Shown piece after piece: positions 851 through 36,405 of a stretch of 64,000 nucleotides of DNA (positions are counted from its first letter, which is position 1; each line of letters opens with the position of its first letter). Under the pieces are notes generated by a model. That model saw only the letters and a list, made by a program, of their open reading frames with translations, was not told the DNA's origin and did not search any database. A program made the position numbers and the translations under genes. Source of the DNA: Pseudonocardia asaccharolytica DSM 44247 = NBRC 16224. Lineage in GTDB: Bacteria; Actinomycetota; Actinomycetes; Mycobacteriales; Pseudonocardiaceae. The stretch spans positions 1 through 64,000 of the forward strand of contig NZ_AUII01000024.1 in the NCBI RefSeq assembly GCF_000423625.1, in the 5' to 3' direction.

Positions 851-1652
851 ATGAACGCCCGCCGCACCAGTCCGTCGCTGCGTCTCGCCCTCGCCGTCGC
901 CGGGCTGATAACCCTGCTCGTCGCCGCCGGGTTCGCCGGGCAGGCAACGTGGGTGACGACCATGCTATGGCCGCTGCCGGACGGGCGGCTGTCTCACCTG
1001 TTCATCTCGGCGATCCTCGCGGGTTCGGCGATGCCGCTGCTGCTGGCCGCGGCGACCGGGGAACTCGCCGGACTGGTCGGCTACGCGGCCGGATTCGGCG
1101 TGATGTACGGCGGGATGGGCGCCTATGCGGCACTGCTGGCCGCCCGCGGAACGCACCTGTGGGCGCTCGGCTTCGCCCTGGCCTGCGCGGGGTTGACCGC
1201 CCTGTTGATCGCGTTGGCCGCGGCCGCGCGGCGGGGTCCGAGGCGGGCAGCTGCTGGCGCGGGTACCCGGAGCGCTGCCCTGGCCGCTGGCGGCGGAGTC
1301 GTCGGTCATGTACGGGCTCGCGTTCGTCGGGATGGGTGTCTATTTCGGGTACGCGCTGCGCAGGCCCACCTGGGTTCACGCGCGGGGCCAGCTGCTCGGC
1401 TTCCTCGCCTACGACGCGGTGCTGATCGGCCCGTTCCTCCACGGCTTCTCGGTCGTGCGGCCGGAGTATCTGCCACGTCTGGTCGTCGCCACCGCGATCG
1501 TCGTGGGCAGTGCGGCACTGGCGGTGTATTACCTGCTGCTGCACCCGCCGACGCGGCTGTGGCCGGTGGCTCGGCCGGGGGCGGGGTCGTCGTACCGGCG
1601 GCAGGCGGCCCCTCGTCGCGGCGCCGACGCCAGGCCGGCCGGATCGGCCTGA
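851..1652 (+). pseudogene. Polytopic membrane protein interrupted by a frameshift
   Basis: Translation starts at ATG 851 after an AGAGGAGAAG ribosome binding site and gives four hydrophobic segments: LALAVAGLITLLVAAGFA, LFISAILAGSAMPLLLAAAT, a glycine-rich GYAAGFGVMYGGMGAYAALL and LGFALACAGLTALLIALAAA. Near 1233-1255 the coding character passes from this frame to another, where it continues as GQLLARVPGALPWPLAAE, then MYGLAFVGMGVYFGYALRRP and further hydrophobic helices to a stop at 1650-1652. The switch lies just after a GGGG run at 1233-1236, typical of a single-base indel (real mutation or sequencing error). A repaired protein would have about 267 residues and six or seven helices. I do not recognise a functional family. 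Confidence 0.65.
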
Positions 1653-1668
1653 GCGCCTCCCCGCCCGA

Positions 1669-1739
1669 CCCGTGATCAACGGTTCGGAGCCACCGGCCGC
1701 GGCAGGCGCGGCTCCCGGCTCCCAACCGTTGATCACGGG
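1669..1739. terminator. Long palindrome, GTGATCAACGG family, copy 1
   Basis: Arms of 23 bases at 1669-1691 and 1717-1739 match with one mismatch; the outer part reads CCCGTGATCAACGG and its complement. It sits between the end of the frameshifted membrane gene and the convergent XRE regulator, where a bidirectional terminator is expected. Related elements occur at 8708-8781 and 56890-56960. Confidence 0.6.
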
Positions 1740-1844
1740 CGATGGGCCGGTGCGTTTGCCGGCTGCGGCGATGACGCACCGCGCCCGGGTCGGTGACGCG
1801 GACGAGTCGGGACTTCGGTCAGGGACCCGATCAGCCGGCCCGTC

Positions 1845-2372
1845 CTACCGGCGGCTCATCCCCCACATCGGGGCCGAGGGGCCCGGGACCCGGCCGGTGA
1901 GCGGCGACTCGTCGACCCCCGTGCCGAGCTCGGCGATCGTCTCTTCGAGAAGGTTGGACAGGATGAGCAACTTGTCGCGCGGCCCGATGCGCAGCTCGCG
2001 GAAAGCCGCCATCCATACGTGACCGTTCGACACGCTCACGCGGTCGTCGCGGATCGGGGGGAGCGTCTCGTCGGCCTCGCCGAGAATCGGGCGGCCGCCC
2101 GCGAGGACGCGACGGATGCTGCCCGCACCCCAGTCCAGGGCTCGCTCGAGCCGACACAGGATATGCGGCCGATAGGAGCCGCGGTGACCACTCTCGAGCA
2201 GGTAGAGGGTGGCGGGGGAGGGGCCGCCGGCGCTGTACACCTCGGCCTGGGTCAACCCGAGCTCGGCTCGCCGTTCTCGCACGAGCCGACCGAGCTGCGC
2301 CCAGTCCTGTTGATCTGAATCGTGGTCGGCGTCCAACCCCGGATCCCGATCTTCCTCATGCCTCGGCCGCAT
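1845..2372 (-). CDS. XRE-family helix-turn-helix regulator
   Basis: The 175-residue protein has a Cro/CI-type helix-turn-helix at about residues 26-80 (RLVRERRAELGLTQAEVYSA, then SPATLYLLESG and RPHILCRLERALDW). The C-terminal half (about 100-165) is helical and ends GPSAPMWGMSRR; I do not recognise it. It is divergent from the ATPase-SSB-SbcCD-like operon, and the 277-base gap between them holds a 14-base inverted repeat, so it is the obvious candidate repressor of that operon and of itself (inference). The ATG at 2372 is used because it fits the helix-turn-helix position; no strong ribosome binding site is visible. Confidence 0.8.
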   Translation of the reverse strand: MRPRHEEDRDPGLDADHDSDQQDWAQLGRLVRERRAELGLTQAEVYSAGGPSPATLYLLESGHRGSYRPHILCRLERALDWGAGSIRRVLAGGRPILGEADETLPPIRDDRVSVSNGHVWMAAFRELRIGPRDKLLILSNLLEETIAELGTGVDESPLTGRVPGPSAPMWGMSRR

Positions 2373-2438
2373 GGGTCGATGATGCCGTACGCCTTAGGAC
2401 AAGCCTAGCACCGGAGGGGCCTGGCGCGCCGAATACTA

Positions 2439-10411: not shown

Positions 10412-12328
10412 ATGAATACCCCGCAGGTGGACACCGACGCGCTGGACCGGGCCGTCCCGGACGAACCGGACGAGCTGGTGCTCGCCGCGGAGTTCCCCGC
10501 GGCCACCCGGGAGCAGTGGGTCGAGCTCGTCGACGGGGTCGTGCGCAAGACCGGTCGCATCGCCGCCGACGCCCCCGCCGGTGCCGGCGCGGAGAAGATC
10601 GGCTGGAGCACCCCGGACGGCGTCCGGGTCCAGCCCCTCTACACCGGGCAAGACCTCGCCGAGAACCTGCCGATCGGCGTCCCGGGGGCGCTCCCGTTCG
10701 TCCGCGGCTCCCGCGCCGGAGGGCCCGTCCCGGATGGCTGGGACGTCCGGCAGCGGCACGCCGACCCGGACCCGCAGGCCGCGAGGAACGCGATCGCGGC
10801 CGACCTGGAGAACGGCGTGACCTCGCTGTGGCTCGCGGTCGGGGAACACGGCACCGCCGTCGCCGACCTGTCCGCCGTGCTCGCCGATGTGCTGCTCGAC
10901 CTCGCCCCCGTCGTGCTCGACGCGGGCGCGCAGGCACCGGCCGCCGCCGAGGCGTTCCTCGCACTGGCCGCGCAGCGCGACGCGCCCGCCGCCGGCCTGC
11001 GCGGCAACCTCGGCCTCGATCCGATCGGGCTGCGCGCCCGGACCGGCTCCGGGCCCGCCGTGGAATCGGTCGCCGACCTCGCGCGCCGGGTCGCCGAACG
11101 GTTCCCGGTGCTGCGCGCGATCGTCGTCGATGCCCTTGCGGTGCACGGCGCCGGCAGCTCCGATGCCCAGGAGCTGGGCTTCTCCCTCGCCGCCGGGGTC
11201 GCCTACCTGCGCGCGCTCACCGCCGCGGGGCTCGACGTCGCCGCGGCCGCCCGGCTGGTGGAGTTCCGCTACGCGGCCACCGGCGAGCAGTTCGCGACGA
11301 TCGCGAAGCTGCGCGCCGCGCGCCGGCTGTGGGGTCGCGTTCTGGAAGCCTCCGGTGCGGACGGCCCCGGCCAGGCCCAGCACGCCGTCAGCTCGCCGGT
11401 GATGCAGAGCCGCCGCGATCCGTGGGTGAACCTGCTGCGCGGCACCGTGGCCGGGTTCGCGGCCGGCGTCGGCGGCGCCGACGCGGTGACCGTCGCGCCG
11501 TTCGACGCCGCGATCGGGGTGTCCGAGCCGTTCTCCCGGCGCATCGCGCGCAACACCCAGGCCCTGCTCATCGAGGAGTCGCATCTGGCCAGGGTGATCG
11601 ACCCGGCCGGCGGCTCCTGGTATGTCGAGCATCTCACCGACGACCTGGCCAGGGCGGGATGGGCGTTCTTCCAGGAGATCGAGGCCGCGGGCGGCGCGGT
11701 CGCCGCGCTGGACTCCGGGCTGGTCGCCGATCGGGTCGCCGCCGTGCGCGAGCAGCGGCAGCGGGCGGTCGCGAAGCGGACCGTCCCGCTCACCGGGGTC
11801 AGCGAGTTCCCGGACCTCGACGAGCGGCCGGTCGCGCGTCGCCCGCTCCCGCGGCCCGCGGCCCACGAAGCAGTTCACGGCGGCCTGCCGACGTTCCGGC
11901 TGGCCGAGCCGTTCGAGGCCTACCGGGACCGATCCGATGAGATCCTGGCCCGGACCGGGACCCGGCCGACGGCGTTCCTGGCCACCCTCGGTCCGCTCGC
12001 CGCCTACACCGCGCGCGCCGGATTCGCCCGCAACCTGCTACAGGCGGGCGGCATCGCGGCACCCGATGCCGGCCCCACCGAGACCCCCGAGGACGTGGTG
12101 GCGGCCTTCACCGAGGCGGGTACCCCCGTTGCGGTGCTGTGTTCCACCGACGCCCTCTACGCCGAGCGCGCCGCGCTCACCGCGGCGGCCCTGCGCGCGG
12201 CCGGGGCGACGGCCGTGCTGCTCGCCGGCCGCGCCGAGGTTCCCGGGGTCGACGGATATCTCTACGCAGGCTGTGACGCGCTGGGCGCGATCGAGGACGT
12301 GTACGGCGCTCTGGAGGGTGCGAAGTGA
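10412..12328 (+). CDS. mutA: Methylmalonyl-CoA mutase small (beta) subunit
   Basis: The 638-residue product is the catalytically inactive partner of heterodimeric methylmalonyl-CoA mutase, which interconverts methylmalonyl-CoA and succinyl-CoA in propionate metabolism. The TIM-barrel part shows W-S-T-P-D-G-V-x-V-x-P-L-Y, then [40 protein letters not shown] and [18 protein letters not shown] Rossmann-like C-terminal domain ([17 protein letters not shown]) lacks the D-x-H-x-x-G cobalamin motif, as expected for this subunit. ATG 10412 follows a GGTGAGGAG stretch. The stop overlaps the mutB start (GTGA), so the subunits are translationally coupled. Confidence 0.93.
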
Positions 12329-14529
12329 CGATTCCCGACTTCACGACGGTTTCGCTGGAGCCCGAGCCGCAGGCCGACAAGGCCGCCGACTGGACGGCCG
12401 CGCTCGCCGGCGCCCCGGCGCCGCAGCCGTGGGAGTCGCCGGAGGGCATCGCGGTCAAGCCGCTCTACACCGCGTCCGACCTCGAGGGCCTCGACTTCCT
12501 GCAGACCTACCCGGGCATCCCCCCGTACCTGCGCGGGCCGTACCCCACCATGTACGTCACCCAGCCCTGGACGATCCGCCAGTACGCCGGGTTCTCCACG
12601 GCGGCCGAGTCCAACGCCTTCTACCGGCGTAACCTCGCCGCCGGCCAGAAGGGCCTTTCGATCGCGTTCGACCTGGCCACCCACCGCGGCTACGACTCCG
12701 ACCACCCGCGGGTGGCCGGTGACGTCGGGATGGCGGGCGTGGCGATCGACTCGATCTACGACATGCGCCAGCTGTTCGACGGCATCCCGCTGGACCGCAT
12801 GTCGGTCTCGATGACCATGAACGGCGCCGTGCTGCCGGTGCTGGCGCTCTACATCGTGGCGGCCGAGGAGCAGGGGGTCGCGCCCGAGCAGCTCGCCGGG
12901 ACCATCCAGAACGACATCCTCAAGGAGTTCATGGTCCGCAACACCTACATCTATCCGCCGCGGCCCTCGATGCAGATCATCTCCGATATTTTCGGCTACA
13001 CATCGGAGAGGATGCCCAAGTTCAACTCGATCTCGATCTCGGGCTACCACATCCAGGAGGCCGGGGCGACCAACGATCTCGAGCTCGCCTACACCCTTGC
13101 CGACGGCGTGGAGTACCTGCGGGCCGGGATCGGCGCGGGGCTGGACATCGACCGGTTCGCTCCGCGGCTGAGCTTCTTCTGGGCGATCGGGATGAACTTC
13201 TTCATGGAGGTCGCCAAGCTGCGGGCGGCGCGGCTGCTGTGGTCGAAGCTGGTCAACCAGTTCTCCCCGCGGAACCCGAAGTCGCTGTCCCTGCGGACGC
13301 ACAGCCAGACCTCGGGCTGGTCGCTCACCGCCCAGGACGTCTACAACAACGTCGTGCGCACCTGCATCGAGGCGATGGCCGCCACCCAGGGCCACACCCA
13401 GTCGCTGCACACCAACGCGCTCGACGAGGCGCTCGCGCTGCCGACGGACTTCTCCGCGCGGATCGCCCGCAACACCCAGCTGCTGCTGGCCCAGGAGTCG
13501 GGCACGACGAAGGTCATCGACCCGTGGGGCGGCAGCTACTACGTCGAGCGGCTGACCTACGACCTGGCCCGCCGCGCCTGGGCACATATCCAGGAGGTCG
13601 AGAAGGCCGGCGGGATGGCCCAGGCCATCGACGCCGGCATCCCGAAGCTGCGCGTCGAGGAGGCCGCGGCACGCACCCAGGCCCGCATCGACTCCGGGCG
13701 CCAGCCGGTGATCGGGGTCAACAAGTACGTCGTCGGCGACGGGGACGCCGACGAGCACCTCGAGGTGCTCAAGGTCGACAACGCCGGGGTGCGCCGCGAG
13801 CAGCTGGAGAAGCTGGAGCGGTTGCGCGCCGAGCGCGACGACCGTGCCGTCGACGCCTCGCTCACGGCACTCACCAACGCGGCCGCGGCCGCCGCGGAGG
13901 GCACCCGGCGCGGATTCGACCAGAACCTGCTGGCGCTGGCCGTGGACGCGGCGCGGGCGAAGGCCACCGTCGGGGAGATCTCCGACGCGCTGGAGAAGGT
14001 CTTCGGCCGCCACTCCGGACAGATCAGGATCATCTCTGGCGTGTATTCGCAGGAGGCCGGGAAGAACCCGGTGATCAGCCGCGCCCGCGAGCTCGTGAGC
14101 GAGTTCGCCGCCGAGGAGGGGCGCCAGCCGCGCATCCTCGTCGCGAAGATGGGCCAGGACGGCCACGACCGCGGCCAGAAGGTGATCGCCACGGCGTTCG
14201 CCGATCTCGGCTTCGACGTCGACGTCGGCCCGCTGTTCCAGACCCCCGCCGAGGTCGCGCGCCAGGCCGTCGAGGCCGACGTGCACGTCGTCGGGGTGAA
14301 TTCGCTCGCCGCCGGGCACCTCACGCTGGTGCCCGAGCTGCGCGACGAGCTGGCGCGGCTCGGCAGGCCCGACATCATGGTCGTCGTCGGCGGCGTCATC
14401 CCGCCGGGTGACGTGCCGGAGCTGCTGGAGATGGGGGCCGCGGCTGTCTTCGGGCCGGGGACGGTGATCGCCGAGGCGGCCGTGGACCTGCTCGGGAAGC
14501 TGTCGGCCGCGCTGCACGCCGAGCACTGA
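12325..14529 (+). CDS. mutB: Methylmalonyl-CoA mutase large (alpha) subunit
   Basis: The 734-residue catalytic subunit carries the substrate barrel ([40 protein letters not shown]) and a C-terminal cobalamin-binding domain with D612-G613-H614-D-R-G, the base-off histidine motif. A Tyr in PTMY is the residue typical of methylmalonyl-CoA specificity; 2-hydroxyisobutyryl-CoA mutases have Ile there. GTG 12325 overlaps the mutA stop and the stop touches the meaB start. The enzyme would channel propionyl-CoA carbon, from odd-chain acids, branched amino acids or possibly the oxidation operon downstream, into the TCA cycle. Confidence 0.96.
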
Positions 14530-28241: not shown

Positions 28242-30782
28242 TCAGTGGCCGCCGAGTGGCTCCACCGTCGTCACCCAGACGACCGGGGCGCCCCCCTCGT
28301 CGGACGCCGCGAGGTCGACCTCCGCGCTGATCGCCCAGTCGTGGTCGCCCGCCGGGTCGTCGAACACCTGCCGGACGAGCCAGCGCTCCGGTTCCTCGCT
28401 GATCGTGACGAGGTGCGGGCCGCGCGCGTTGGGGCCGGTGCCGATGGCCGAGTCGTCGCGCCCGTGCTCGGCGAAGTACGGCTCCAGCGCCGCGCGCCAG
28501 GCCGCCGCGTCCCAACCGGCCTCGGCGTCGAGCTCGCTCAGGGCGTCCCATCGGTTCAGCGCCGCGAGCTCGACGCGGCGGAACATCGCGTTGCGCACCA
28601 GCACCCGGAACGCCCGGGTGTTGCGGGTGACACCCGCGGGCCCCTCGTCGAGAGCGGGCGGATGCGCCTGCTCGCCCGCGCCCGCGCCCGCCGCGAGCGC
28701 CTCCCACTCGTCGAGCAGGCTGGAGTCGACCTGGCGGACGAGCTCGCCGAGCCATTCGATGACGTCGGCGAGCTCCTCGGTCTTGGCCTCGTCGGGCACG
28801 GTCTGGCGCAGCGCCCGGTAGGCGTCGGCGAGATAGCGCAGCACCAGCCCCTCCGAGCGGGCGAGCTGGTAGTGCGAGACGTACTCGGCAAACGTCATGG
28901 AGCGGGTGAACATGTCCCGCACGACCGACTTCGGCGACAGCCGCGCATCCTCCACCCACGGATGGCCGCGCCGGTAGGTCTCCAGCGCGGCGTCGAGCAG
29001 CTCCTCGAGGGGTTTCGGATAGATGACGTCCTCGAGCAGCACCATGCGCTCCTCGTACTCGATCCCCTCGGCCTTCATCGCGGCGACGGCCTCGCCGCGG
29101 GCCTTGTTCTGCTGCGCGTACAGCACGGCGCGAGGGTCGTCGAGCGTCGCCTCGACGACCGAGACGACGTCCATCGGGTAGTCGGGCGAGGCCCGGTCGA
29201 GCAGCTCGATCGCGGCCAGCGCGAAGGGGGACAGCGGCTGGTTGAGCGCGAAGTCGAGCTGCAGGTCGCCGACGATACGCACCCGGCGGCCCTCCGCATC
29301 GGGGTCGGGGAACTCCTCGACGACGCCCGCGGTGCGCAGCGCCCGGTAGATCGCGATCGCCCGGCGGATGTGGCGGCGCTGCCGCTCGCGGGGCTCGTGG
29401 TTGTCCTCCAGCAGGTGACGCATCGCGGCGAACGGGTCGCCGGGCCGGGAGATGACGTTGAGCAGCATCGCGTGGGTTACCACGAAATGGCTGGTCAGCG
29501 GCTCGGGCTGGGCGTTCTGCAGCCGCTCGTAGGACTTCTCCGACCAGCCGACGAACCCCTCCGGCGGCTGCTTGCGCACCACCCGGCGGCGCCTGCGGGG
29601 ATCGTCGCCCGCCTTCGCGAGCGCCTTGGCGTTCTCCACCTCGTGCTCGGGGGCCTGCGCGACGACGGTGCCGACGGTGTCGTAGCCCGCCCGGCCGGCC
29701 CGCCCGGCGATCTGGTGGAACTCGCGCGCCCGCAGGCCGCGGGTGCGCACCCCGTCGTACTTCGACAGCGCGGTGAACAGCACCGTGCGGATCGGCACGT
29801 TGATCCCGACGCCGAGGGTGTCGGTACCGCAGATGACCTTGAGCAGCCCGGCCTGCGCCAGCGTCTCCACCAGCCGCCGGTAGCGGGGCAGCATCCCCGC
29901 GTGGTGCACGCCGATCCCGTGGCGCACCAGCCGGGAGAGCGTCTTGCCGAACCCGGCGGTGAACCGGAAGCCCCCGATCAGGTCGGCGATCGCCTGCTTG
30001 TCCTGTTTCGACGACACGTTGACGCTCATCAGAGCCTGCGCCCGTTCGACCGCCGAGGCCTGCGTGAAGTGCACGACGTACACCGGCGCCTCGTGGGTGG
30101 CCAGCAGCTCGGCGATCGTCTCGTGCAGCGGGGTGAGCGCGTAGCGGAAGTACAGCGGCACCGGCCGCTGCGCCGAGGTGATCACCGCGGTGGCCCGGCC
30201 GGTCCGCCGGGTGAGGTCGTCGCGGAAGAAGGAGACGTCGCCCAGGGTCGCGCTCATCAGCAGGAACTGTGCCTGCGGAAGCTCGATCAGCGGCACCTGC
30301 CAGGCCCAGCCGCGGTCGGGATCGGCGTAGTAGTGGAACTCGTCCATGACGACGCTGCCGACGTCGGCGCCCCGCCCGGAGCGCAGCGCGATGTTCGCCA
30401 GGATCTCCGCCGTGCAGCAGATGATCGGCGCGGTCTCGTTCACCGCGGCGTCCCCGGTGAGCATGCCGACGTTGTCCGCACCGAACACCTCGATGAGCGC
30501 GAAGAACTTCTCGCTCACCAGCGCCTTGATCGGCGCCGTGTAGAAGGTGCGCTCGCCGCGGGCCAGGGAGATCGCGTGCGCCGCGATCGCGACCAGCGAC
30601 TTTCCCGAGCCCGTCGGGGTGGAGAGGATGACGTTGCTGCCCGTGACGAGCTCCAGCAGCGCCTCGTCCTGCGCCGGGTACAGCGAAAGGCCCTGCTCGG
30701 TGAAGGCCCAGTCGGCGAAGGTCTCGACGAGCGCGTCGGCGTCGAAGGGGGAGGGCAACCGGTCGGTGAGCGTGCGCGTCAT
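28242..30782 (-). CDS. Superfamily 2 DEAD/DEAH-box helicase with DUF3516
   Basis: From ATG 30782 the protein has 846 residues. Helicase motifs are in order: Q-like YPAQDEALLELV, Walker A STPTGSGKS, Ia TAPIKALVSEKFF, GDAAVNETAPIICCTAEIL, II VMDEFHYY, III LMSATLGD, and the second lobe with GIGVHHAGMLPRYR, GTDTLGVGINVPIRTVL and QIAGRAGRAGYDTVG. This is a Ski2/HelY-like core; the C-terminal 400 residues fit the DUF3516 extension. Probably an RNA helicase (inference from Ski2 likeness). ATG 30782 is favoured over a start 54 bases upstream because homology begins near TRTLTDRLPSPF. Confidence 0.9.
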   Translation of the reverse strand: MTRTLTDRLPSPFDADALVETFADWAFTEQGLSLYPAQDEALLELVTGSNVILSTPTGSGKSLVAIAAHAISLARGERTFYTAPIKALVSEKFFALIEVFGADNVGMLTGDAAVNETAPIICCTAEILANIALRSGRGADVGSVVMDEFHYYADPDRGWAWQVPLIELPQAQFLLMSATLGDVSFFRDDLTRRTGRATAVITSAQRPVPLYFRYALTPLHETIAELLATHEAPVYVVHFTQASAVERAQALMSVNVSSKQDKQAIADLIGGFRFTAGFGKTLSRLVRHGIGVHHAGMLPRYRRLVETLAQAGLLKVICGTDTLGVGINVPIRTVLFTALSKYDGVRTRGLRAREFHQIAGRAGRAGYDTVGTVVAQAPEHEVENAKALAKAGDDPRRRRRVVRKQPPEGFVGWSEKSYERLQNAQPEPLTSHFVVTHAMLLNVISRPGDPFAAMRHLLEDNHEPRERQRRHIRRAIAIYRALRTAGVVEEFPDPDAEGRRVRIVGDLQLDFALNQPLSPFALAAIELLDRASPDYPMDVVSVVEATLDDPRAVLYAQQNKARGEAVAAMKAEGIEYEERMVLLEDVIYPKPLEELLDAALETYRRGHPWVEDARLSPKSVVRDMFTRSMTFAEYVSHYQLARSEGLVLRYLADAYRALRQTVPDEAKTEELADVIEWLGELVRQVDSSLLDEWEALAAGAGAGEQAHPPALDEGPAGVTRNTRAFRVLVRNAMFRRVELAALNRWDALSELDAEAGWDAAAWRAALEPYFAEHGRDDSAIGTGPNARGPHLVTISEEPERWLVRQVFDDPAGDHDWAISAEVDLAASDEGGAPVVWVTTVEPLGGH

Positions 30783-30941
30783 GGTCTGCCGATCGTCCCC
30801 CCTCACCGCCTGCCCGGCGCCCGCGGGGCCCGGCACCGGGCCGCTCGTCCCTCCGCGGCCGCCGCACGGCTACCGAGGGCCGCAAGAGATGCGGCCGCTG
30901 ACTACGCTGCGTGTGTGATCTGCTGGGCCCGATCGGGCGGT

Positions 30942-32471
30942 ATGCCCGATTTCGTGCCCGCCATGCGTGCCGCTCCCGGCACCCTCCCCACCGGCCAGGG
31001 CTGGGCGGTCGAGCTCGCCTGGGAGGGCCTGCGATGCATCGCCTACGCCCGTCCCGGCCACCTCCGCCTGCTCACGGTGCGCGACCTCCCGGTGACGGGG
31101 TCGTTCCCGGAGCTTCGGGTGCTCGCGGCGACCGCGCCGCGGCGGGGGATGGTGCTCGAAGGCACGATCGTCGTGCCCGACGACACCGGCCTGCCGAGCG
31201 CTCGGCTGCTGCGCAGGCGCACCGCCACCGGCAGGCCCGGGGCGGCGCTGCTCGACGAACTCTCGGCCGGCTTCTTCGTCAGCGACCTGCTGTGGCTCGA
31301 CGGTGCGTCCACCCTCGCGTTGCCCTACGGCCGCCGCCGGGCCCTCATCGAGGGGCTCGGCCTCGCCCGGCAACCGATCGTGGTCTCGCCCTCGTGGCCG
31401 GCCGGCGACGCCGGGCAGGTGCTGCAGATGGCGCGGCGCTACGGTATGGACGTCATCTACGCGAAGCGGCTCGACGCCCCCTACCAGCCGGGGCGGCGCA
31501 CCCGCAGCTGGCTGCGGGTGCCGGTGTGCCGCATCCAGCGGGTGGTCGTCGGCGGCTGGAGTCCCGCCGACCCGCGGCGCCCGGAGTCGGTGGCCGCGCT
31601 GCTGCTCGGCGTGCCGGAGCACGACGGGCTGCGCTACGTCGGTCGGGTGGGGCTCGGCTCCGGCCCTGACCATCACGCCGTCGCCGAGCTGCTACCCGGG
31701 CTGCAGGCGGGGGCGTCGCCGTTCGCCGAGCCGCTGCCGGATCCGGTCGCGGCAGACGCCGTCTGGGCGGTGCCGCGGCTGGTCGGATGCGTCGAGTTCA
31801 CCGAGTGGACAGCGGGCGGGCGGCTACGGCTGCCGGTCTGGCGCGGGCTCGATGAACGCGGTGATCTCGGCGAGGTTGCTGAGGCCGGCGAGACGGACGC
31901 CGGCCCGCCGCAGGTCCCGGCCGCAGGTCCCGGCCGGCCGGCGGCGCCGCGCACCCGCGTCGGCGGGAGTGCCGCGACCGTCCCGCAGCCGCAGGCCGGG
32001 GCTGCGGGCGAGACGGTCCGGACCCGCCGGCTCGAGCAGCACTTCGTCTACAACGCCCTCAACACGATCGCGGCGCTCGTGCGCACCGATCCGACCCGCG
32101 CCCGGGAGCTGCTGCTCGGCTTCGCCGACCTCACCCGGGCCGCGGACCAGCCCGCCGACGCCGCCATCCCGCTGGAGGCGGAGCTGGCGTCGGTGCGCGC
32201 CTACCTCGACCTCGAGCAGGCCCGGTTCGGACGGCGGTTGCGCGCGGCCGTCACCGTCGAGCCCGCGCTGGCGGAGGTCCCGGTCAGCCCGACGTCGGTG
32301 CTCACGGTGGTCCGGGAGATCGTCCAGCGGCGCATCGAGCCACGGCCGGAGGGCGGCAGCCTGGTGGTCACGGTCGCCGCCGACGGCGCCGGCTGCCTCG
32401 TCACGGTGCTCGACGAGGGGATGGGGGAGCGGCGGGAGCTGCGCGTCGGCGCCGCCGGGCCGGACCCGTGA
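30942..32471 (+). CDS. Degenerate ATP-dependent DNA-ligase domain fused to a LytS-type histidine kinase domain
   Basis: From ATG 30942 (an in-frame GTG is at 30915) the 509-residue protein has two parts. Residues 1-300 follow the LigC/LigD ligase order: motif I region ELAWEGLR (24-31), LEGTIVV (72-78), FFVSDLLWLDG, YAKRLDAPYQPGRRTRSWLR and an OB fold ending VEFTEWTAGGRLRLPVWRGL. The nucleotidylated Lys is Ala26, the motif I Asp is Glu28 and the motif III Glu is Thr75, so ligation is unlikely. A Pro/Ala-rich linker (320-360) leads to LEQHFVYNALNTI with the phospho-acceptor-type His367, and VLDEGMGE as a G1-like box; the N-box Asn is missing. I infer a nucleotide or DNA sensor fused to a signalling module. 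Confidence 0.8.
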   Translation: MPDFVPAMRAAPGTLPTGQGWAVELAWEGLRCIAYARPGHLRLLTVRDLPVTGSFPELRVLAATAPRRGMVLEGTIVVPDDTGLPSARLLRRRTATGRPGAALLDELSAGFFVSDLLWLDGASTLALPYGRRRALIEGLGLARQPIVVSPSWPAGDAGQVLQMARRYGMDVIYAKRLDAPYQPGRRTRSWLRVPVCRIQRVVVGGWSPADPRRPESVAALLLGVPEHDGLRYVGRVGLGSGPDHHAVAELLPGLQAGASPFAEPLPDPVAADAVWAVPRLVGCVEFTEWTAGGRLRLPVWRGLDERGDLGEVAEAGETDAGPPQVPAAGPGRPAAPRTRVGGSAATVPQPQAGAAGETVRTRRLEQHFVYNALNTIAALVRTDPTRARELLLGFADLTRAADQPADAAIPLEAELASVRAYLDLEQARFGRRLRAAVTVEPALAEVPVSPTSVLTVVREIVQRRIEPRPEGGSLVVTVAADGAGCLVTVLDEGMGERRELRVGAAGPDP

Positions 32472-32600: not shown

Positions 32601-33005
32601 TTACTCGCCCGGCGAGAGCGCGGGGGGCTCCTTGCGCCGCCCGCCGCGCTGCATGTCACCGGTCGTGATGCGCCGGCGCGGGTCGATCAGCCGCTTCCAC
32701 TTGGCGTGGGCGGCCTGCCGGCTCGACAGCTGCGCCTCGACGGCCTCGGCCACCTGCCGCCAGGTCATCCCGTCGGCGCGCAGACCGCGGATGAGGTCGC
32801 GTTCGTAGTAGTCGGCGAGCCTGCGCATCTCGTGGACGAGCGCGTACCAGGCGGCCGGGCCGCGGCGAGGCAGCTCGCCCGCCTTGGCCAGCTCCTTGAG
32901 CCGGTCGAGCTGTTCGGCCAGGGACGGCCCCGGATGTTCCGGGAACGGTCCCATCCGCTCCATCCAGCGCTTCGCTTCGTCGTACTTCATACGTCGTTCA
33001 TACAT
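32601..33005 (-). CDS. Small putative DNA-binding protein with helix-turn-helix
   Basis: From ATG 33005 the product has 134 residues; an ATG at 32990 (MKYDEAKRWMERM) is an alternative. The middle is helical (LAEQLDRLKELAKAGELPRR, YALVHEMRRLADYYERDLIR). The later LRADGMTWRQVAEAVEAQLS resembles a helix-turn-helix, followed by a basic tail (WKRLIDPRRRIT). It recalls small actinobacterial proteins with a similar GMTWRQVA motif. The start codon lies inside one copy of a repeated 13-base motif, whose second copy is 68 bases upstream, hinting at autoregulation. Function unknown. Confidence 0.65.
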   Translation of the reverse strand: MYERRMKYDEAKRWMERMGPFPEHPGPSLAEQLDRLKELAKAGELPRRGPAAWYALVHEMRRLADYYERDLIRGLRADGMTWRQVAEAVEAQLSSRQAAHAKWKRLIDPRRRITTGDMQRGGRRKEPPALSPGE

Positions 33006-33077
33006 TGACGCACCGCCCAGGGGAAGGGTCCCTGCGCATTCGTCCGGCACCACACCCGTTGTCATTCATAGATTGAC
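32997..33077 (-). promoter_or_regulatory. Repeated GTCAATSTATGAA motif at the small regulator start
   Basis: Read on the minus strand, GTCAATGTATGAA (33009-32997) covers the start codon and GTCAATCTATGAA (33077-33065) lies 68 bases upstream; 12 of 13 bases agree and both are preceded by a GGTGCGTC-like stretch. Either two binding sites of the encoded protein or duplicated promoter -10 regions. From here to 33298 (about 290 bases) I see no other gene. Confidence 0.45.
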
Positions 33078-33298: not shown

Positions 33299-34045
33299 AT
33301 GCTGGGCCTCCCCGATGGCACCCGGGCCTGCCTCTTCGACCTGGATGGCGTCCTGACCGACACCGCGAGCGTGCATGCCGCGGCCTGGAAACAGATGTTC
33401 GACGAGTTCCTGCGCGCCCGGGCCGACCGGTGCCGCGAGGAGTTCCGCCCATTCGACGTCTCGGCCGATTACGGCCCCTACGTCGACGGCCGTCCCCGCC
33501 TGGAGGGCACCGAGATCTTCCTGCGCTCCCGCGGCATCGAGTTGCCCATGGGCGATCCGGACGATCCGCCGGACGCCGAGACCATCTACGGGCTGTCGAC
33601 CCACAAGAACGACCTGGTGCAGGTGAAGATCCAGGCCGACGGGGTGGACGTCTACCCCGGCTCGGTCCGCTACCTCCAGGCGGTCCGCGACGCCGGGCTG
33701 CGTACCGCCGTCGTGTCGTCGTCGGCGAACGCGAGCCAGGTCCTCGACGCGGCCGGGCTGGTAAAGTACATCGACCATCGGGTGGACGGGGTCGTCGCCA
33801 AGGCGCGTGGCCTGCAGGGCAAGCCGGCGCCGGACACGTTCCTCGCGGCGGCGGCCGATCTGGGGGTGGAGCCGGCCGCGGCCGTCGTCTTCGAGGATGC
33901 GCTGGCCGGGGTCCAGGCCGGCCGCGCGGGCCGTTTCGGGTCCGTGGTCGGGGTCAACCGGTTGGATCAGGCCGACGCGTTGCGCGCGCACGGCGCCGAT
34001 GTCGTCGTCGACGACCTCGCGGAGCTGCTGGTGGCGGCCTCATGA
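33299..34045 (+). CDS. Beta-phosphoglucomutase (HAD superfamily)
   Basis: The 248-residue protein has the HAD phosphatase signature [18 protein letters not shown] (nucleophile Asp in DLDG), a helical cap, [35 protein letters not shown] and [13 protein letters not shown]. The four-helix cap and VVSSSAN fit beta-phosphoglucomutase. Its stop overlaps the start of the GH65 phosphorylase (ATGA), so the pair likely works together: phosphorolysis releases beta-glucose 1-phosphate, which this enzyme converts to glucose 6-phosphate. Confidence 0.88.
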
Positions 34046-36405
34046 CGGCGGCGGCGGACTCCGGGCGGCCCTTCACCGTCGAACCGTGGATCGTGCGCGA
34101 ACCGGTCCTGCACCTGGATGCCATGGGGCAGACGGAGTCGGTGTTCGCCCTGTCCAACGGCCATATCGGATTGCGCGGCAACCTCGACGAGGGGGAGCCG
34201 CACGCGATCCCGGGCACCTATCTCAACTCGCTCTACGAGCGCCGCCCGCTGCCGTATGCCGAGGGCGGCTACGGGTACCCGGAGTCCGGTCAGACGATCA
34301 TCAACGTCACCAACGGCAAGCTCATCCGGTTGCTCGTCGACGACGAGCCGTTCGACCTGCGCTACGGCGAGCTCCGCCGCCACGAGCGGGCGCTGGACCT
34401 GCAGGCGGGCATCCTGACCCGCGACGTCGAGTGGGTCTCGCCCGCGGGGCGCGCGGTCCGGCTGCACAGCGAGCGACTGGTGTCGCTGACCCAGCGGGCG
34501 ATCGCCGCGATCAGCTACGAGGTGGAGGTGTTGGACGAACCGGCGCTGCTGGTCGTGCAGTCGGAGCTGGTCGCGAACGAACAGCTGCCCGCCGTCGACG
34601 ACGGCGACCCGCGCGTCGAGGCGGCGCTGGCCGAACCCCTCGTCGCCGAGCAGCACCGCAGCGGCGAGGCGGGCGCCACGCTGGTCCATCAGACCCGGGT
34701 GTCCGGGCTGCGGCTGGCGGCCGCGATGGACCACGAGGTGCACGGCCCGGAGCGGGTCAAGGTCACCTCGGAGGCCACCGAGGACATCGGCCGCACCACC
34801 GTGATCACCCGGCTGAAGCCGGGGGAGAAGCTGCGGGTGGTCAAGTACCTGGCCTACGGCTGGTCGGCGCGCCGGTCGCTGCCCGCCGTGCACGACCAGG
34901 TGCGCGCGGCGCTGGCGGCGGCGCGGTTCACCGGGTGGGACGGCCTGGTGGCCGAGCAGCGCTCCTTCCTCGACGACTTCTGGGCGACCGCGGATATCGA
35001 GATCGACGGCGACGCCGAGCTGCAACAGGCAGCCCGGGTCGCCACGTTCCACGTGCTGCAGGCCGGGGCGCGCGCCGAGCGCAGGGCGATCGGGGCCAAG
35101 GGCCTCACCGGCAACGGCTACGACGGCCACACCTTCTGGGACACCGAGACGTTCTGCCTGCCGGTGCTGTCCCATCTCGCTCCGGACGCCGCCGCCGATG
35201 CTCTGCGGTGGCGGCAGTCGATCCTGCCGCTGGCCATGGAGCGGGCTCAGCAGCTGGGGCTGGCCGGCGCGGCGTTTCCGTGGCGCACCATCCGCGGGCA
35301 GGAATGCTCCGGGTACTGGCCGGCGGGCACCGCGGCGTTCCACATCAACGCCGATATCGCCGACGCCGTGCGCCGGCACGTCGCGGCGACGGGTGATACC
35401 GCGTTCGAGTGCGAGGTCGGCCTGGAGCTGCTGGTGCACACGGCGCGGCTGTGGCGCTCCCTCGGCCATCACGACTCGGCGGGCGAGTTCCGCATCGACG
35501 GGGTCACCGGCCCCGACGAGTACACCGCGATCGTCGACAACAACGCCTACACCAACCTGATGGCGCAGCTGAACCTGCGCTACGCCGCCGAGGTCGCCGC
35601 GCGGTATCCACGGGCGGCGGCGCGGCTGGGCGTCAACGCCGAGGAGATGGCGAGCTGGCGCGACGCGGCGAGGGCGATGCGCATCCCGTACGACGAGAGC
35701 CTCGGCGTGCATCCGCAGGCGGAGGGGTTCACCGACCACCAGCGGTGGGACTTCGAGAACACACCGCCGGAGAAGTACCCGCTGTTGCTCAACGTCCCGT
35801 ACTTCGACCTGTACCGCAAGCAGGTGATCAAGCAGGCCGACCTGGTGCTCGCCATGCAGCTGCGTCCGGAGGTGTTCAGCCCCGAGCAGATGGCCCGCAA
35901 CTTCGCCTACTACGAGGCGATCACGGTGCGGGACTCGTCGCTCTCCGCGGCGACGCAGGCGGTCGTCGCGGCCTGGACGGGACATCTCGACCTCGCCTAC
36001 GACTATCTTGCCGAGGCGGCGCTGATCGACCTCAACGACCTGGCCGGAAACACCGGCAACGGCATCCATATCGCGTCGATGGCCGGCACGTGGAGCGCCG
36101 TGGTCAGCGGCTTCGGTGGGATGCGTTCGGACCGCGATGGGATCTCCTTCGCACCGCAGCTGCCCTCGGCCCTTTCCCGGATCTCGTTCGGGCTGAAGTG
36201 GCAGGGCCGGCAGCTGCGCGTCACGATCACCAAGGACGAGGCGGAGTACCGGCTGGTCAGCGGTCCGCCGATGCGCCTGCGCCACCACGACGAGCCACTC
36301 GCGCTGGCCGATGACCCGGTGATCCGGCCGATGCCGCCGCCGGCTGTCGTCGAGCCGGTGGAGCAGCCGTACGGTCGGGCGCCGCGGCAGCGCCATCCGG
36401 GCTGA
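34042..36405 (+). CDS. GH65 family disaccharide phosphorylase (trehalose/kojibiose/maltose type)
   Basis: The 787-residue protein has the GH65 N-terminal domain ([20 protein letters not shown], then [10 protein letters not shown]), an (alpha/alpha)6 catalytic barrel ([32 protein letters not shown]) with the general acid Glu493 in [11 protein letters not shown], and the basic [11 protein letters not shown] segment. It uses phosphate to split an alpha-glucobiose into beta-glucose 1-phosphate and glucose. Trehalose is the commonest substrate in such pairs but kojibiose or maltose cannot be excluded. ATG 34042 overlaps the mutase stop. Confidence 0.9.

Follow-up and report, generated by a model that had tools for sequence, protein, structure and literature searches.

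Gcn2 is a eukaryotic Ser/Thr kinase with a part that resembles histidyl-tRNA synthetase (HisRS), and it follows the logic that a dead nucleic-acid enzyme does the sensing for a kinase. To our knowledge, no dead DNA ligase serves as the sensor of a kinase. The first 64,000 nucleotides of contig NZ_AUII01000024.1 from Pseudonocardia asaccharolytica DSM 44247 (hereafter the window) encode a protein for which the same logic is proposed here, although it is not homologous to Gcn2. The gene, found at 30942..32471 on the forward strand, has an ATG start and a stop and encodes 509 amino acids in one frame, with a ligase-like half that has lost its catalytic residues (a pseudo-ligase) in front of a half related to LytS-type histidine kinases. 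In its mode of action the fusion most likely resembles a sensor pseudoenzyme within a two-component system. No description of the fusion or of a pseudo-ligase turned up in searches of open-access full texts, and those passages of two papers on non-homologous end joining (NHEJ) that a word search reached mention no kinase fusion (PMC5124664, PMC7719229).

The ligase half shares its two-domain fold with the ligase core of the LigD/LigC type, as represented by M. tuberculosis LigD (1vs0), but it lacks the catalytic Lys, the Glu of motif III and the Lys of motif V, and it carries a kinase half. The other half has the His_kinase domain, including the histidine and its surrounding motif, in common with a resident LytS kinase with a GAF domain, called the C2-type here. 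In the fusion, however, the sensor is a dead ligase rather than a GAF domain, the ATP-binding domain of the window protein has been lost, and there is no adjacent LytTR gene. A His-bearing domain without a usable kinase domain beside a paralogous kinase, as proposed for the fusion, is found in FasC of the FasBCA system and in the ChrS pseudokinase. The FasC study reports that the protein needs the histidine of its dimerization and histidine phosphotransfer (DHp) domain, that its kinase domain is dispensable, and that it pairs with FasB (PMC12675982). In this respect the window protein resembles FasC, with the His-bearing domain retained and the ATP-binding domain present as a remnant only. The sensors of FasC and ChrS are of other kinds and contain no ligase-like part, while a heterodimer of the fusion is a proposal made from its sequence. 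A non-catalytic role of a dead NHEJ ligase at breaks is exemplified by DNA ligase IV, since catalytically dead Lig4 still promotes the repair of double-strand breaks (PMC9638927). The likeness to the fusion is proposed; this Lig4 is an engineered point mutant without a kinase, while the fusions are a natural family.

A preliminary description of the window, made from its letters alone, held that one frame joins the adenylation and OB-fold domains of a ligase to a LytS-type kinase segment, and both Pfam and the solved relatives confirm this. The nucleotidyltransferase (adenylation) domain covers residues 1-193 (30942..31520; all parts of the fusion are on the forward strand) and matches DNA_ligase_A_M (PF01068) over residues 18-192 with 43 bits. 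The well conserved OB-fold domain at residues 197-305 (31530..31856) matches DNA_ligase_A_C (PF04679) over 216-303 with 54.9 bits, and both matches are above cut-off. A disordered linker rich in Pro and Ala follows (residues 311-361, 31872..32024), which differs in length among species and has a predicted local distance difference test (pLDDT) score below 50. The DHp-like domain at residues 363-433 (32028..32240), supported by Pfam, by the structure model and by the substitution rates given below, matches His_kinase (PF06580) with 56.1 bits against a cut-off of 25.2 and contains the putative phospho-acceptor His367 (codon 32040..32042). Residues 434-505 (32241..32456) form a remnant of the ATP-binding (Bergerat) domain, which has no lid and has lost the Asn of the N-box.

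Among solved structures, the LigD ligase domain from M. tuberculosis comes closest to the ligase half (163 bits), and Foldseek aligns residues 8-304 of the predicted model with this structure at 36% identity (E 2.8e-28). For the kinase half, the histidine kinase 6swj is a solved relative over residues 363-501 (E 1.8e-10). The AlphaFold2 model of the window fusion, built with 32 sequences, has a mean pLDDT of 88, with values mostly above 90 in both ligase domains and in the His-domain. After residue 432 the model consists of one helix and four strands, a partial ATP-binding fold, while the model of a relative (L057) displays a second helix and further strands where the window protein has none. 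The fusion frame is also open for 899 more codons upstream (28245-32471, forward strand), antisense across a helicase gene. This extension is a GC-rich chance frame, and an automatic caller could mistake the start.

When it comes to the catalytic residues, alignment with ligases places Ala26 (codon 31017..31019) at the site of the nucleophilic Lys, Glu28 at that of the motif I Asp and Thr75 (codon 31164..31166) at that of the motif III Glu, just as the preliminary description had read them. Motifs IV and V, which it took to be intact, are decayed. Motif IV is G-M-D-V-I-Y-A-K in the window and G-L-E-G-V-V-A-K in many non-fusion ligases, so that Glu-Gly has become Asp-Val, and motif V is W-L-R, with Arg192 in place of the Lys of W-x-K. 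Among 71 distinct fusion sequences the motif I Lys and the motif III Glu are missing throughout (0/71 each) and the motif V Lys is present in five, while the motif I Gly (71/71), the motif I Arg (70/71) and a Lys or Arg in motif IV (71/71) are retained. A column-by-column comparison was made with 39 non-fusion ligases (L244, L245, L250 and L251 omitted). Of these, 38 or 39 have the motif I Lys, and the same holds for the motif Ia Arg, the motif III Glu and the motif V Lys. These four are lost in the fusions; the structural Gly, Trp, Pro and Arg residues are mostly kept and a minority of other positions vary. The Phe of motif IIIa is also lost in the sample from crown Pseudonocardia. All 26 of the best ligase-only relatives fetched from the order (L115-L140) retain the Lys.

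The window protein scores 165.1 bits with the NCBIfam model TIGR02779, under the curated cut-off of 227.75, and it stays under the cut-offs of every ligase model that matched. A conserved Lys elsewhere, which according to the preliminary description could have accepted AMP, was not found: no Lys is invariant or nearly so in a 32-row alignment, and an alternative adenylated Lys was rejected for that reason. Judged by the defining residues, which were tested and are absent, the window protein does not belong to the DNA ligases.

Of 35 genomes of the same genus, 29 have a continuous fusion and four have one that is split over contig ends (G006, G023, G028 and G032). The remainder consists of G027, which has a broken copy, and G020 (88% complete), in which none was found. 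Across positions 31850-32050, where the two halves meet, 28 of 30 loci (the window's own and 27 others) read through both halves in one open reading frame, and the remaining two (L010 and L030) end at contig ends. The named records contain 39 full-length loci, one of which (L057) is labelled only as a metagenome-assembled genome (MAG) of Pseudonocardiaceae. The soil strain P. dioxanivorans CB1190 also has an orthologue (L040). Full-length fusions were also found in three other genera among 390 genomes of the family, here called g40 (17 genomes), g81 (10) and g102 (2); these counts comprise fusion-bearing genomes only, from matches up to 1e-100. It had been considered that homologues might end near residue 310 and be followed by a separate kinase gene, but the orthologues are continuous fusions. 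A frameshift or assembly artefact was thus rejected, given this continuity in the genus and in three others. The fusion is genuine and conserved, and its ligase half likely serves as a sensor, as first suggested. One g102 genome (G633) has two fusion genes, L255:7172-8566 on the reverse strand and L179:7549-9180 on the forward strand, one of them convergent with a gene for Ku and the other elsewhere.

The ligase tree, with 69 distinct rows, is divided by one branch (support 100) into 26 fusions that lack the Lys and 43 non-fusions that have it. Its rows were chosen from available loci, namely 11 among the first 30 orthologues, L057, 11 from other genera or basal positions, and later loci; the kinase-less ligases without the Lys are not among them. 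In a kinase tree of 54 distinct rows the fusion halves again fall into a single, moderately supported clade (86/74), and C2-type kinases surround both the fusions and a second resident LytS kinase, the C5-type. The inner order of the two trees is similar, with g81 beside g102 and g40 beside crown Pseudonocardia. The identity of the kinase half to the C2-type is 0.53-0.57 in the basal, g40 and g81/g102 fusions and 0.40 in the crown; identity to the C5-type is lower, at 0.45-0.47 and 0.36, respectively. The tree placement and these identities indicate that the kinase half derives from a duplication around the resident C2 and C5 LytS kinases, and that crown Pseudonocardia represents a derived state.

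Ratios of nonsynonymous to synonymous substitution (dN/dS) were obtained as Nei-Gojobori counts for 22 chosen close pairs from crown Pseudonocardia; these are GC-rich and not independent, and dS is partly saturating. The ratio is 0.08-0.47 in the ligase half (median 0.20), 0.04-0.29 in the His-domain (median 0.14), 0.14-0.80 in the linker and 0.18-0.80 in the ATP-domain remnant (median 0.40), and in 21 of the 22 pairs the His-domain has a lower value than the remnant. The dead ligase and the His-domain are thus under purifying selection and form the working parts of the protein.

In the kinase half the preliminary description read the histidine as present and the N-box Asn as gone, which is correct: His367 is there and Glu459 takes the place of the Asn. 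His367 and Asn371 (the His and the Asn four residues on) are retained in 68/68 fusion sequences covering the region, and the N-box Asn in 25/68. No HATPase_c (PF02518) match was obtained with Pfam in the window protein. Outside Pseudonocardia this domain is above cut-off in nine of the 11 fusions tested, and it is also above cut-off, as a weak but long match, in P. spinosispora. The match is complete in 3/3 g40 fusions tested (to profile position 109-110 of 111) and partial in 8/8 g81/g102 fusions (to position 53-79), two of which are under cut-off. Fusions of g40 and g81 still have the N-box Asn and a G1 box of the DDGxG-like kind. Those of g81 and g102 keep both boxes and have a short lid/G2 part; a complete-looking kinase half was seen in g40 only. 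It follows from this series, and from the loss of the motif I Lys throughout, that all members have lost ligase chemistry, and kinase chemistry to different degrees. The window copy, as read from its residues, is not a working histidine kinase, and the earlier suggestion of signalling through its kinase half is not right as stated, with the ATP-binding domain degenerate and truncated. With its range from a complete to a missing kinase, the series serves as a natural experiment on the path from sensor kinase to pseudokinase.

Three PF06580 proteins, the fusion included, are found in the genome of the window, and three matches are also seen in 50 of 60 genomes of the genus. A LytTR gene lies about 2 kb or less from each of the other two, of the C2- and C5-type, and the LytTR genes of the genome are located on contigs C2, C5 and C1. 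The C2-type is a GAF kinase with a receiver-LytTR regulator, and its cluster also contains an Fpg-type glycosylase and an S49 peptidase. Among 15 fusion-bearing genomes tested, the C2-type kinase is present in all and a C5-type match in five, which makes C2 the constant candidate partner. Compared with the C2 kinase of the window's genome, the His-domain is on average over 28 orthologues 65% identical in the first helix and 26% in the second; for the C5 kinase the values are 53% and 23%. The Fpg/MutM-type DNA glycosylase of the C2 cluster (L151:5869-9880) may bear on the signal of that kinase. The third LytTR protein (L146:418-1809, forward strand, 463 amino acids) has its LytTR match on the C-terminal side, and no receiver is seen by eye in the N-terminal part.

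Ku is the DNA-end-binding protein of NHEJ. In all 10 fusion-bearing g81 genomes the gene immediately upstream of the fusion is that of Ku, and the two are co-directional. At five of these loci 31-106 bases were measured from the Ku stop to the first matched residue of the fusion, and at the other five the two matches are 304-453 bases apart. The g102 fusions are convergent with Ku in 2/2 cases, namely in G632, on the same contig as L057, and at the second fusion copy of G633; no Ku is found on the contig of the first G633 copy. In 15 of the 17 g40 genomes Ku and the fusion share a contig and are 8.0-13.7 kb apart; in the other two (G355 and G356) Ku is found on a different contig, and the fusion is near a contig end or on a contig of 4.7 kb. 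Since Ku is present in all 42 genomes searched, its mere co-occurrence with the fusion says nothing. Of the variants of the sensor idea, that of nicked or broken DNA is the one favoured by the gene order of these relatives. A pseudo-ligase with neither a kinase nor an OB domain adjoins Ku in the three g40 genomes looked at and in G633 (L253:10993-11694, reverse; L252:7527-8474, forward; L254 at about 12280-13110, reverse; L255:5507-6214, reverse). Three were read residue by residue, and at the motif I Lys position they have Asp (G349 and G301) or Arg (G633).

The explanation preferred here is that the fusions are a family of pseudo-ligase sensors of DNA ends built on a histidine kinase, of which only the phospho-acceptor part survives in Pseudonocardia and needs a partner kinase. 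A probability of about 40% is given to this reading. The fusion would have arisen in an ancestor shared by part of the Pseudonocardiaceae, where a resident LytS-type kinase was duplicated, the C-terminal half was attached to an ATP-dependent ligase of the NHEJ type, probably one linked to Ku, and adenylation was lost. The dead ligase has kept its fold and its OB domain and grown more basic, with a mean net charge of the ligase half of +8.5 in the fusions (n=26) and +1.4 in ligases of the same family (n=21), and it would read DNA ends, nicks or a Ku-DNA complex. With the complete-looking kinase half of g40, end-binding could drive autophosphorylation and a signal to a LytTR-type regulator. In crown Pseudonocardia, the window included, the ATP-binding domain has decayed and strong selection has kept the His-bearing domain, so that the protein could act only with a partner. 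This would most likely be the C2-type LytS kinase, in a mixed dimer or with His367 giving or receiving phosphate, on the model of FasB and FasC. Ligand, kinase switching, partner and output are all conjectural in this scheme.

A more specific form of the proposal, held more tentatively, is a bacterial sensor kinase for double-strand breaks, where Ku would hand the ends to the dead, kinase-fused ligase, His-Asp phosphotransfer would follow, and the crown form would borrow a resident LytS kinase. If true, the eukaryotic kinases that sense breaks would have a two-component counterpart in bacteria. In bacteria the link from DNA damage to transcription is usually assigned to responses of the RecA/LexA or PafBC type. 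If the link to Ku is functional, a two-component pathway would connect end-joining with transcription in these bacteria. With the g40 and g81 proteins the sensor question can be tested directly in vitro.

Several observations weigh against such a sensor. Gene order is circumstantial, and the g81 and g102 genomes are drafts or MAGs. Ku was not near the fusion in the Pseudonocardia genomes examined (11 by position and that of the window), and the Ku gene of the window's genome is on another contig, beside a Lys-bearing ligase. The crown locus is tied to a DUF3516 helicase and a HAD-GH65 pair, a linkage that says nothing about breaks. The Ku-adjacent fusions of g81 and g102 are incomplete as kinases by Pfam, and the complete match is found in g40, where Ku is 8-14 kb away. 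With the LytTR genes of the window's genome located, no response regulator or LytTR gene was found beside the fusion. On the kinase tree the sister of the fusions is the C5-type kinase (87/87) and not the C2-type, and a mixed dimer with the C2 kinase may be impossible, as the second helix averages just 26% identity. The ChrS work reports heterodimers for the native pair and not for a form without the ATP domain, and also that the His of ChrS is not needed (PMC9491836). Loss of the Lys is not confined to the fusions, being seen also in the kinase-less ligases by Ku in g40 and G633. The contrast in mean net charge of the ligase half is that of one clade, and its nominal p of 5e-8 ignores relatedness. 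Finally, in the broken copy of G027 (L261 on G027:C29, about 1422-2412, reverse strand) ligase residues 13-162 are followed by kinase pieces in other frames and most of the OB part is missing, and the gene is thus dispensable somewhere.

Some of these observations would suit a structural accessory of NHEJ or repair that does not signal, in which the dead ligase bridges or protects ends and the kinase remnant only dimerises. The decay of the ATP-binding domain in the window and its partial match in the Ku-adjacent g81/g102 fusions fit this well, as do the lack of a regulator next door, the Ku linkage in three genera and the dead Lig4 precedent (PMC9638927). The complete HATPase_c of the g40 fusions, together with the N-box Asn and G1 box of g81 and g102, indicates, however, that signalling was probably the earlier state, and a pure dimeriser would not need the histidine that all covered fusions retain. 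Such an accessory role is considered less likely than the sensor.

A regulator of some process other than breaks in crown Pseudonocardia, recruited to the locus of the helicase and the HAD-GH65 genes and acting on sugar metabolism or on the control of an RNA or DNA helicase, is suggested by the neighbouring genes and is considered unlikely. A divergent SF2 helicase with DUF3516 (28242..30836, reverse strand) is the conserved upstream neighbour, and a HAD hydrolase (33299..34045, forward) and a GH65 family sugar phosphorylase/hydrolase (34042..36405, forward) are conserved downstream. The helicase is upstream in 35 of the 39 full-length named loci (exceptions L052, L057, L058 and L062), and HAD and/or GH65 are downstream in 35 of 39 (exceptions L035, which meets a contig end, L057, L058 and L062). 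That the fusion is at a different locus in P. eucalypti, in P. spinosispora and in the other genera also fits a role peculiar to the crown locus. The helicase and the HAD gene are, on the other hand, on opposite sides of the fusion and on opposite strands, and the strong constraint on the ligase half points to a ligand of the ligase type.

The preliminary description also named a nucleotide or NAD/ATP as what might be sensed. A dead ligase that binds ATP, AMP or NAD without using the nucleotide would have the intact fold for it, as well as the Gly and Arg of motif I and the basic residue of motif IV, which are nearly invariant. This is nevertheless improbable, with the motif I Lys, the motif Ia Arg, the motif III Glu and mostly the motif V Lys gone together, and the motif IIIa Phe missing as well from the crown sample. 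A decaying pseudogene or chance frame can be dismissed as very improbable in spite of two enzymes without catalytic residues, the broken G027 copy and a divergence faster than that of the neighbours (the identity across crown loci is 44-68%, that of the helicase 77-88% and that of GH65 76-90%), given the low dN/dS of the ligase half and the His-domain and the stop-free passage through both halves at every one of the first 30 loci not cut by a contig end.

When it comes to the surroundings of the fusion, PADLOC returned no defence-system match for the fusion itself. The helicase matches models for the helicases of several systems, which is to be expected of many SF2 helicases, and a known defence system was rejected as an explanation. 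Inspection by eye for a common promoter motif singled out only a TACGCT block of the -10-like kind, at five loci and in the window. Between the fusion and the HAD gene the window contains a conserved gene of 154 residues on the reverse strand (32601-33065) with no Pfam match; in other Pseudonocardia loci where it was found, this gene is located beyond the helicase.

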